DNA of 64,000 nt from assembly GCA_949296425.1 (NCBI GenBank), contig CASFPN010000041.1, forward strand, positions 1 to 64,000, written 5' to 3'. A model generated the notes under the pieces. The model was not told the DNA's origin, made no database searches, and saw only the letters and a program-made list of their open reading frames with translations. This DNA is from an uncultured bacterium. Lineage in GTDB: Bacteria > Cyanobacteriota > Vampirovibrionia > Gastranaerophilales > Gastranaerophilaceae. This document shows, one piece after another, positions 1-52,253 of this stretch (within the stretch, counting starts at the first letter, position 1; each line of letters begins with the position of its first letter). The position numbers and the translations under genes were made by a program.

Positions 1-264
1 ATAGTTGTGGATGTAAACAATTTTAATAATGGACCGAATCAATTCGGGCGCGATGTTTTTGTAATTCACGTATCATCAGATATTAAGAAGAATAAACATT
101 ATTTAGCCCCTGCCGGTTCAGAAAGTTTGTTTGACGAAATTTCGGCTCTTAATAATGCTGATTACGGTATCACAGGCTGTTCCAAAGATATTGGCAAACC
201 ATCATCAAACACCGTATACGAAGTTGCAGGCTCAGGTTGTTCGGCTAAGTATCTTTTGGAATAA
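1..264 (+). CDS. Type IV pilin-like protein, C-terminal fragment (5' end outside window)
   Basis: The frame is open from base 1 and stops at 262-264, so about 87 C-terminal residues are visible and the start lies upstream of the window. The segment IVVDVNNFNNGPNQFGRDVF resembles the closing part of the GFTLAEVLITLG-type prepilins of this lineage, where a V-D-x-N-G-P-N-x-x-G-x-D stretch precedes the C-terminal loop. Two cysteines (in TGCSKD and GSGCSA) may form the usual C-terminal disulphide. The N-terminal pilin signature cannot be seen here, so the call rests on this C-terminal pattern and on the several full prepilins elsewhere in the window. The gene converges on the thymidylate-kinase-like gene, leaving only 6 nt between the two stops. 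Confidence 0.6.
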   Translation: MVVDVNNFNNGPNQFGRDVFVIHVSSDIKKNKHYLAPAGSESLFDEISALNNADYGITGCSKDIGKPSSNTVYEVAGSGCSAKYLLE

Positions 265-7561: not shown

Positions 7562-7750
7562 AATAATAAATATAGAGTTATGCTGAATCTATTTAGAGCT
7601 CACTGCCATCTTTACTTGGTAATATTTTGTAGTCAGGCATATCAGCTGATTTGACAATTTTTACACCTTGAAAATATGGTAAATAATACTTTTCAACAAA
7701 GGGGGGGGGGCAATCTGAAAGATTGTGATATTAACATTTTTATCCTCTTT

Positions 7751-8824
7751 TTAAGCACTTGCCCCGAGTTGTCTTCTTAATTCTTCCGGTCTTGAAGATC
7801 TTTGCAGTGCATCTTCAATTGTAATAAGATTTTGTCGGTACAGATTGGCAAGCGCCATTTCCAGGGTCTGCATGCCTATTGCGGAATTCATTTGAATAGT
7901 AGAATAAATCTGGGCAGCTTTTGCTTCTCTGATAAGGTTTGCAATCGCAGGTGTAACAAGCATTATTTCCTGAGCCATAACACGTCCTTTTTTAGTTCCG
8001 TCAGGCTGGAGTTGTTGAAGCAGCGTTTGTGAAAATACCGCAACCAGAGAGTTTGCAAGCTGTACACGGATTTGCTGCTGCTGTCCTTCAGGGAAAACGT
8101 CTATGATACGGTCGATTGTCTGTGCAGCTGATGATGTATGCAAAGTTCCGAATACTAAGTGACCTGTTTCTGCTGCTGTCAGAGCTAAAGCAATTGTTTC
8201 ATGGTCTCTCATCTCACCTACCAGAATGATATCAGGGTCTTCACGGAGTGCTGATTTCAACGCGTTAGCAAAAGATCTTGTGTCCATGCCAAGTTCACGC
8301 TGGTGAATTATACTTTGTTTTGATGTATGCACAAATTCTATAGGGTCTTCAATTGTCAAAATGTGTTCAGCTCTGTTTGTGTTAATATAATCTATCATTG
8401 CGGCAAGCGTTGTAGATTTACCTGAACCTGTAGGGCCTGTTACAAGAATTAATCCTCTGGGTTTATCAGCCATTTTTCTTACAACTTCCGGCAGTCCGAG
8501 TTTATCAAACGAAGGTACTATTGAAGTAATTGTTCTGAATGCCGCAGCGTAGTTGCCTTTATCTTTATAAAAGTTAACCCTGAAACGGCTCAAACCTTCA
8601 ATCCCGTATGAAAAGTCAAGTTCCCATGTTTGTTCAAGGGTTCTTCTTTGTTCATTTGAAAGCATCGGGAATAATAAAGTTTCGACATCATCAGGGCTTA
8701 AAGCCGGATAATCATATCTTGTCAGATTTCCGTCAATACGGGCAACCGGCGGGAGGCCGCTTGAAATATGTAAGTCGGAACCGCCGTCTGCAACAAGTTT
8801 TTCTAAAAGTTCTTCAATTAACAT
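7751..8824 (-). CDS. pilT: Type IV pilus retraction ATPase PilT
   Basis: A 357-residue hexameric secretion ATPase that depolymerises the pilus from the cytoplasmic side of the inner membrane and powers twitching. The N-terminal PAS-like domain carries GSDLHISSGLPP. Walker A is GPTGSGKST at about 130-138. The Asp box is LTIEDPIEFVH, Walker B IILVGEMRD, and the His box GHLVFGTLHTSSAAQTIDRI. The AIRNLIRE-type retraction motif is seen as AIANLIREAKAAQ. Length matches the family. AAGGA lies before the ATG, and the 84-residue gene upstream ends 3 nt away, so the two are co-transcribed. Extension ATPase PilB, PilC and PilD are not in the window. Confidence 0.96.
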   Translation of the reverse strand: MLIEELLEKLVADGGSDLHISSGLPPVARIDGNLTRYDYPALSPDDVETLLFPMLSNEQRRTLEQTWELDFSYGIEGLSRFRVNFYKDKGNYAAAFRTITSIVPSFDKLGLPEVVRKMADKPRGLILVTGPTGSGKSTTLAAMIDYINTNRAEHILTIEDPIEFVHTSKQSIIHQRELGMDTRSFANALKSALREDPDIILVGEMRDHETIALALTAAETGHLVFGTLHTSSAAQTIDRIIDVFPEGQQQQIRVQLANSLVAVFSQTLLQQLQPDGTKKGRVMAQEIMLVTPAIANLIREAKAAQIYSTIQMNSAIGMQTLEMALANLYRQNLITIEDALQRSSRPEELRRQLGASA

Positions 8825-21677: not shown

Positions 21678-22319
21678 TTACTTACCGTACAATACAGCTT
21701 TAGCAGCTTGAGAGTTCGGAAGTATTGTTTGGTCATAGTAAACTACAGGATAAATATCTGTCGGGTTTTTAACTTCGCAATCAGCTGTATGCTGCGCAGC
21801 ATCAACACCTGCAGCTTGAGCATTTGAGCATTCTACAACTTTGTTAGGGCCTTTTAATCCGTTTACGTCAACGAAACCTTTACATTTTTCCCCGTTGCTT
21901 ATGCCGGAATCCTGATCAGGATCTGAGCAAACTTTGCCGGCAGTAGGGCCAGCAAAACTAAATACAATACCGTCACTGAAGTATAATGTATAGTTGTTAG
22001 CACCTTGAGTTAAAAGAGTAGGAGCTGTTTCATAAGGAATAGTACCTACTTCATCAGCACCGTTAACAACGTTCATTCTTGCAGCTAAAATGTCTTTTAT
22101 GCCTTCTGCAGTTGTAACATCAGCAAAGCTGTTTCCGTCCAAAGCAACGTTCAATGTAACACCCTGAGCAATAGCTGATAAAGCTTTTTTGTAAGCAGCT
22201 TTGTACTGAGCGCCCTGAGTAGAATTCATCAATGTAGGCATTGTCATTGCAGCTACAACACCGATGATACCTAAAGTAATCAACACTTCTGCGAGTGTAA
22301 AGCCGAATCTTTTTGTCAT
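21678..22319 (-). CDS. Type IV pilin-like prepilin A
   Basis: A 213-residue prepilin. A very short leader, MTKRFG, is followed by FTLAEVLITLGIIGVVAAMT with the invariant Glu5 and a hydrophobic helix, so prepilin peptidase would cut after Gly6. The globular part has the features of this lineage (YTLYFSDGIVFSFAGP, FVDVNGLKGPNKVVECS) and cysteines that may pair. It is a close paralogue of the gene at 22835-23461: the first ~75 residues and the C-terminal YDQTILPNSQAAKAVLYGK are nearly identical. AAGGTG lies before the ATG and a strong terminator follows, so it is probably monocistronic. It may be a major or minor pilin, or a pseudopilin. Confidence 0.9.
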   Translation of the reverse strand: MTKRFGFTLAEVLITLGIIGVVAAMTMPTLMNSTQGAQYKAAYKKALSAIAQGVTLNVALDGNSFADVTTAEGIKDILAARMNVVNGADEVGTIPYETAPTLLTQGANNYTLYFSDGIVFSFAGPTAGKVCSDPDQDSGISNGEKCKGFVDVNGLKGPNKVVECSNAQAAGVDAAQHTADCEVKNPTDIYPVVYYDQTILPNSQAAKAVLYGK

Positions 22320-51502: not shown

Positions 51503-51530
51503 TTGTAAAATTAATATGTTGGTATATAAT
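51503..51530 (+). promoter_or_regulatory. Candidate promoter upstream of the poly-G prepilin
   Basis: TTGTAA (51503-51508), a 16-nt spacer and TATAAT (51525-51530) predict a transcript start near 51537. That lies after the ATG at 51531 and before the ATG at 51544. Confidence 0.5.
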
Positions 51531-52253
51531 ATGGAGAATTGTAATGCAAGTATTAAGAAATATAAAGAAGTCCGGGGGGGGGGCATTTTAGGCTTTACCC
51601 TTGCAGAAGTGTTAATTACTTTGGGTATTATCGGGGTTGTTGCGGCTTTAACTTTACCGACTCTTGTTTCTAAATACCAGCATAAAGTAAGAGAAACAGA
51701 GTTTAAAAAAGCATATTCATCTTTGCAGCAGGCTATTTATTCCATTGATCCGGCTTATATCTCTGCTTGGACCGGTTCTGCGGGAAATACAGAACTGGAA
51801 TTTTATACTGAGTTGTACAGTAAATATAAGGTTATTTCTGATAAAGATGTTAAAAATTTATATAAAAAGAACAATAAAATTTTAATAAAAAATTATAATA
51901 AAAAAGAAGGAGATATGGATCTGTGCGCACAGCTTCCTACAAGAATTGCCGCAGACGGATCTGCAATTAGCGGAGTGTATAATTGTTTCGGAAACTGGAT
52001 CGTAATTGATACGAACGGCCCGAAGCGTGAGCCAAATGCTCTGGGACATGATATTTTTTATTTTGCGCTTAATCAAAATAAATTAATTCCTGTCGGTTCT
52101 CCGCAATATACTCACTGGCAAATGAAACCTAATTCAACTTATTGTTCAAAAAATTCGGATAATAAAACAAACGGCGGATCATGCGCTTATTTTGCAGTCG
52201 CAAATATATGTCCTGATGACGAATCAAAGACATATTGGGAATGCCTTCCCTAG
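51531..52253 (+). CDS. Type IV pilin-like prepilin with ten-G tract before the pilin signature
   Basis: A prepilin of about 240 residues in the present frame. The body begins GFTLAEVLITLGIIGVVAAL with Glu5, followed by a globular domain with FGNWIVIDTNGPKREPNALG and cysteine pairs near the end. Its N terminus is unusual: in the observed frame it would start at the ATG at 51531 (MENCNASIKKYKEVRGGG), with no ribosome site. A second ATG at 51544, with GGAG 7 nt upstream, is out of frame because the intervening tract has ten G (51574-51583) and meets TAG at 51589. With 8 or 11 G it would read straight into GFTLAEV. Expression therefore may depend on tract length. It is divergent from the MalG-type gene. 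Confidence 0.8.
   Translation: MENCNASIKKYKEVRGGGILGFTLAEVLITLGIIGVVAALTLPTLVSKYQHKVRETEFKKAYSSLQQAIYSIDPAYISAWTGSAGNTELEFYTELYSKYKVISDKDVKNLYKKNNKILIKNYNKKEGDMDLCAQLPTRIAADGSAISGVYNCFGNWIVIDTNGPKREPNALGHDIFYFALNQNKLIPVGSPQYTHWQMKPNSTYCSKNSDNKTNGGSCAYFAVANICPDDESKTYWECLP
51574..51583 (+). repeat. Ten-G homopolymer in the prepilin leader
   Basis: Ten consecutive G lie between TCC and CATTTTAGG, just before the codons for GFTLAEV. Tracts of this length are prone to slippage; a change of one base shifts the frame of the pilin. Confidence 0.9.

Follow-up and report, generated by a model that had tools for sequence, protein, structure and literature searches.

Poly-G tracts at the starts of type IV prepilin genes suggest a repertoire of phase-variable pilins in an uncultured genus of Gastranaerophilaceae

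In a prepilin gene of an uncultured bacterium of the Gastranaerophilaceae (Cyanobacteriota), a run of ten G separates a start codon from the codons of the mature pilin, which raises the question of whether the length of this tract decides if the pilin is made. The gene lies on contig CASFPN010000041.1 (GenBank assembly GCA_949296425.1), of which positions 1 to 64,000, referred to here as the window, were analyzed; the features discussed are compiled in Table 1. The tract is located just 5' of the GFTLAEV codons, as had been read from the letters of the sequence, and translations at each tract length agree with the original prediction that ATG 51544, which is preceded by GGAG, meets a TAG (51589-51591) at ten G, but enters the signature once the tract comprises 8 or 11 G. 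From the start that has a ribosome-binding site, the window pilin is OFF as assembled. Its signature is of the [G/A]FTLxE type and is followed by a hydrophobic stretch; the match to PF07963 (51591-51653) scores 18.9 bits, below the cut-off of 21.2 bits.

The original prediction also held that a one-base slip would swap which of two starts can make the pilin, ATG 51531 being in the pilin frame at ten G. This is correct for the window sequence; however, in the orthologues L125 and L127 the frame equivalent to that of the 51531 start meets a stop before it reaches the tract. Since ATG 51531 moreover lacks a ribosome-binding site and directly follows a -10-like box, it was not relied on, and the locus is better described as an on/off switch than as a swap of starts.

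Table 1. Features of the window that relate to the two G10 tracts
Feature	Position	Strand	Remarks
TATAAT box	51525-51530		Adjoins ATG 51531
GGAG, likely ribosome-binding site for ATG 51544	51533..51536	+	Position confirmed
Leader ORF at ten G: MQVLRNIKKSGGGAF, then TAG (OFF state)	51544..51591	+	Translation of each tract length
Prepilin gene	51544..52253	+	Continuous only at 8 or 11 G; at ten G open only from ATG 51531
Flanking DNA motif, G strand: TCC-G10-CATTTTAGGC in the window copy	51571..51593	+	Genus consensus TTC-G10-C[AG]NYYY..RGC
G10 tract, proposed switch	51574..51583	+	Length and one-base offset shared by four orthologues
Prepilin signature GFTLAEV, start of mature pilin	51591..51611	+	Sequence and PF07963
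Probable pilin remnant: C10 preceded by RBS-ATG (7735-7737) and followed by FVEKYYLPYFQGVKIVKSADMPDYKILPSKDGSEL, which ten C leave out of frame	7596..7737	-	
Second G10 tract (C10 on coding strand)	7701..7710	+	
PilT-like ATPase gene	7751-8824		T2SSE domain

Runs of more than five G occur just twice in the window, at 7701 and 51574, each being exactly ten; the window has six overlapping matches to G8, compared to 0.22 expected by chance. The region 7593-7740, next to the gene of the PilT-like ATPase, is probably a deleted pilin locus: the remnant on the minus strand weakly resembles a pilin-like C-terminal stretch (46% over 24 amino acids; E value of 0.006 in a small database). Two further prepilin signatures in the window, at 22304 and 23446, have ordinary short leaders and no tract. 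The first 132 bases of the window (1-132) recur, reverse-complemented, at the starts of the contigs C1 and C46 and constitute a contig-edge repeat.

The source genome (2.0 Mb in 46 contigs) contains 94 runs of at least eight G, comprising 74 of ten, seven of eleven, five of nine, four of eight and four of twelve. At least 60 tracts have a start codon on one side and a type IV prepilin signature on the other, and about 62 have such a signature in the 470 nt after them. Since PF07963 matches 104 signatures in this genome (97 above the 21.2-bit cut-off), about 60% of its prepilin signatures carry a tract; many of the tract-free prepilins have ordinary short leaders. The G10 run is on the coding strand in some genes (G-type), whereas others have C10 on the coding strand (C-type), and in nearly all family members of both types an ATG with a ribosome-binding site lies about 18-48 nt, usually 20-35 nt, upstream of the tract. 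The frame between tract and signature is open over up to 466 nt. At many loci of the source genome, L031, L038 and L044 among them, leaders of up to about 150 residues, which is unusual among type IV prepilins, consist of dispersed genomic repeats, yet are open in the pilin frame. At L057:12313 the tract is interrupted, with a total length of ten and the same frame offset, representing a locked copy. At L054, L070, L088 (15265) and L279, G10 is located inside long non-pilin ORFs which are in frame at ten, and phase variation may therefore reach beyond pili.

We counted the frame from the ATG with ribosome-binding site in 161 deduplicated pilin tracts of the source and other species; 144 of these require 8 or 11 G (p = 8e-50 versus one third). 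The rule spans all three tract phases and both gene orientations, and the same one-base offset is observed with G10 or C10 in the mRNA. Because the codon phase of the tract and its distance to the signature vary, the offset appears to have been selected rather than merely inherited with the flanks. From tract to signature (42 loci, 10,595 nt), the pilin frame contains no stop codon, compared to 281 and 257 in the other two frames; selection of the loci itself demanded an open frame, a demand that excluded just 3 of about 65 candidates. The absence of stops over 10.6 kb, together with the conserved one-base offset, argues for continuing selection on translation. It also renders hardly credible the view that these are decayed, never-expressed pilin copies in which nothing switches, as might be suggested by most copies being out of frame and by the remnant-like tract at 7701.

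As assembled, 147 of the 161 pilin tracts are OFF. The original prediction had expected length differences among relatives; what was found is mostly ten (140/161, 87%) and about 6% eleven, the latter nearly all in frame. With the ATG that has a ribosome-binding site, 14 of 16 pilins at G11 are in frame, as opposed to 6 of 140 at G10 (Fisher p = 1e-13), where 134 are OFF. Motif tracts of eleven G number 39 over 32 genomes (0-4 each) and are present in most genomes. Lengths from 9 to 12 are found, and among 66 pairs of similar loci, 7 are unequal in length. Both ON and OFF lengths are present among homologues, a change in length shifting the frame of expression. Upstream identity of the pair at L083 stops after 49 nt, and its interpretation as one locus at two lengths was rejected.

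The arrangement extends across most of the genus. Among relatives, compared as one genome per species, 22 of 23 other same-genus genomes have 4 to 158 runs of at least eight G, and in the order's other families, 15 genomes have 0-10. Named matches place the lineage in Candidatus Gastranaerophilales. The tight motif TTC-G10-CR occurs 46 times in the source genome and is present in 19 of 22 same-genus genomes; the rest of the family rarely has it (14 in G382), other Cyanobacteriota hardly ever do, and the reversed motif, used as control, was near zero in all genomes searched. In viral contigs, the longer motif had no exact match and the shorter motif had 37 matches, none of them leading to a pilin, so that this source yielded no strain variants. 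In G044, G045, G047 and G010, the orthologue of the window pilin (79, 71, 65 and 62% identity) carries G10 in every case and would come into frame at 8 or 11 G; the flanks have diverged, and the gap between tract and signature is 124, 20, 10 and 13 nt, respectively, versus 7 nt in the window. Most of the genus looks alike in its assembled sequences, with many pilins OFF at ten and few ON at eleven. Two genomes of the same genus, G022 and G013, possess prepilins and almost no tracts; in G022, four tracts contrast with at least 135 prepilin signatures, and most of the copies inspected there have normal short leaders.

Tract orientation follows replication rather than transcription. In contigs with at least two motif tracts, 66 of 66 tracts have the same orientation within the contig, and this holds even for six contigs that encode pilins on both strands. 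Among the C-preceded tracts of G044, a near-complete genome, the orientation flips only twice, once between 35 and 212 kb of C1 and once between 210 and 305 kb of C2, and these flips would divide the genome into arms of similar size. In the source genome, GC skew is positive on the G strand in 65 of 73 cases, and most of the exceptions are short loci whose skew is near zero. We infer from this skew, and from a gene bias that is slight (about 53-55% of the long ORFs), that the G strand is the leading strand. The dnaA gene of G044, at C1:658 kb, lies off the orientation flip and was rejected as origin marker, so that the replication polarity rests on the GC skew. The consensus of the G strand (128 G-type and 43 C-type tracts) is TTC 5' of the tract, C[AG]NYYY 3' of it, and RGC at about +8 to +11. 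It reads the same whatever the direction of the gene and hence belongs to the DNA rather than to the codons; no hairpin around the tract was evident by eye in the consensus. That the orientation tracks replication polarity and not transcription points to a process at the DNA level.

Phase variation by slippage is favored by the frame rule and the G11 copies in combination with an orientation and a motif that act at the level of DNA, and we consider it probable, at roughly two in three, that the tracts are poly-G contingency switches in which replication slippage turns a repertoire of prepilins ON at G11 and OFF at G10. The original prediction of a phase-variable prepilin accordingly holds as the best reading on comparative grounds, widened to dozens of genes across the genus. 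Translation from ATG 51544 would run through the tract and yield the prepilin only if this comprises 8 or 11 G; ten G, the usual length, would halt the ribosome after 15 codons, and a +1 slip during DNA replication would produce eleven G and the ON state. With about 60 prepilin loci in the source genome, dozens in most species of the genus and one layout, few pilins would be on per cell, and each cell might thus vary its surface against hosts, phages or competitors. Several findings weigh against slippage. The tract length is unusually uniform; MutS1, found in 31 of 32 genomes, should lower slippage, and its presence also led us to reject loss of mismatch repair as a cause; and assembled lengths of G tracts can be wrong (PMC9187656). 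As a more specific and tentative version, TTC-G10-CR...RGC might be a dedicated two-state DNA switch, in which a replication-coupled process acting in one orientation would hold the tract at ten and make the +1 form, leaving dozens of copies silent and few on.

The conserved length of ten leaves room for programmed recoding, which we regard as rather unlikely. Here the tract would be fixed at ten, and either slippage of RNA polymerase (+1 base) or -1 ribosomal frameshifting would constantly make some full-length pilin. A slippery homopolymer with the downstream frame offset by one is present, the length and the offset are kept in orthologues despite diverged flanks, and the offset is identical for G10 and C10 mRNA. 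However, an RNA mechanism predicts neither that orientation is set by replication instead of the coding strand nor that the motif is on the G strand in both gene orientations; besides, G11 copies, which are in frame unaided, occur in most genomes, and ten G leave a few genes other than pilins in frame.

Miscalled tract lengths would offer another account, in which the tracts commonly have eleven G that assemblies report as ten, and the pilins would just be ON. The tracts nearly always fall short by a single base, and a tract of Bifidobacterium breve annotated as G11 was G12 in 60% of cells (PMC9187656). This account is nevertheless improbable to a high degree, because the pattern occurs in more than 20 separately assembled species, runs of 9, 11, 12 and more G were assembled in the same genomes, and the point-mutated tract GGGGGGAGGG of L057:12313, which is harder to miscount, is still ten and off frame.

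Recombination has probably contributed to the family, since the sequences on the two sides of the tract suggest that exchange at or near it spread the arrangement. Whether G10 and its motif serve mainly as a junction for the exchange or conversion of modules, with a start on the 5' side and a pilin on the 3' side, in the manner of pilin antigenic variation, is a separate question, and we think this very doubtful. The two sides assort independently (213 locus pairs of the source genome share the 3' side only, 15 the 5' side only, and 7 both), and of a 78-nt module found 3' of the tract, 26 of the 29 strong copies abut an intact tract. The excess of 3' sharing is, however, largely due to one repeat family of the source genome and is weaker in G004, no recombinase is linked, and the frame rule would be left unexplained. 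The start-less silent cassettes of pilE-type gene conversion were not encountered; nearly every tract pilin has its own ribosome-binding site and ATG. L043:4462, L069:3979 and L069:9384 are mosaics joined at the tract, sharing the 5' side with different 3' sides and vice versa. Many contigs of the source genome, among them C3, C5, C17, C21, C27, C29, C31, C42 and C45, end about 200 nt or less from a tract; several such ends have near-identical repeats, indicating either that shared flanks broke the assembly or real rearrangements.

Several known systems come close to the one proposed here. Neisseria varies its type IV pili by poly-G in pilC or by recombination into pilE from silent copies; the genus studied here resembles it in combining type IV pilins and G tracts, but each gene has its own tract and start, and no expression locus was identified. 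KOPS and Chi are G-rich motifs which are skewed to one replication strand and spread through the genome; the motif described here shares the strand skew, but is largely confined to the starts of prepilin genes. The poly-G genes of Campylobacter likewise have intragenic tracts of 8-12 G, many per genome, in surface genes with frame-based ON/OFF states (PMC6321876). Their lengths are spread, mostly 9 (53%) and then 10 (26%), with a median of 20 tracts (PMC6321876), unlike the prepilin tracts, which are 87% at ten. In B. breve, replication slippage at G10/G11 tracts gates pilus genes (PMC9187656). Its sortase-dependent pilus clusters, in a gut commensal and with a G10/G11 tract, are OFF as annotated and turned ON by one indel (PMC9187656), and may be regarded as a close functional precedent, with the difference that B. 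breve has one or two loci and sortase pili, as compared to dozens of type IV prepilin-like genes here. In contrast to the poly-G switches compared, the G strand always matches the G-rich replication strand, and the flanking motif is conserved in both gene orientations.

A search of the literature found no description of phase variation in this lineage. If the proposed reading is true, an uncultured gut lineage of the Cyanobacteriota would possess what is, to our knowledge, one of the largest homopolymer-switched pilus repertoires. Its strict replication orientation and shared flanking motif would provide a testable case for replication-coupled control of slippage, with a bearing on poly-G switches generally.
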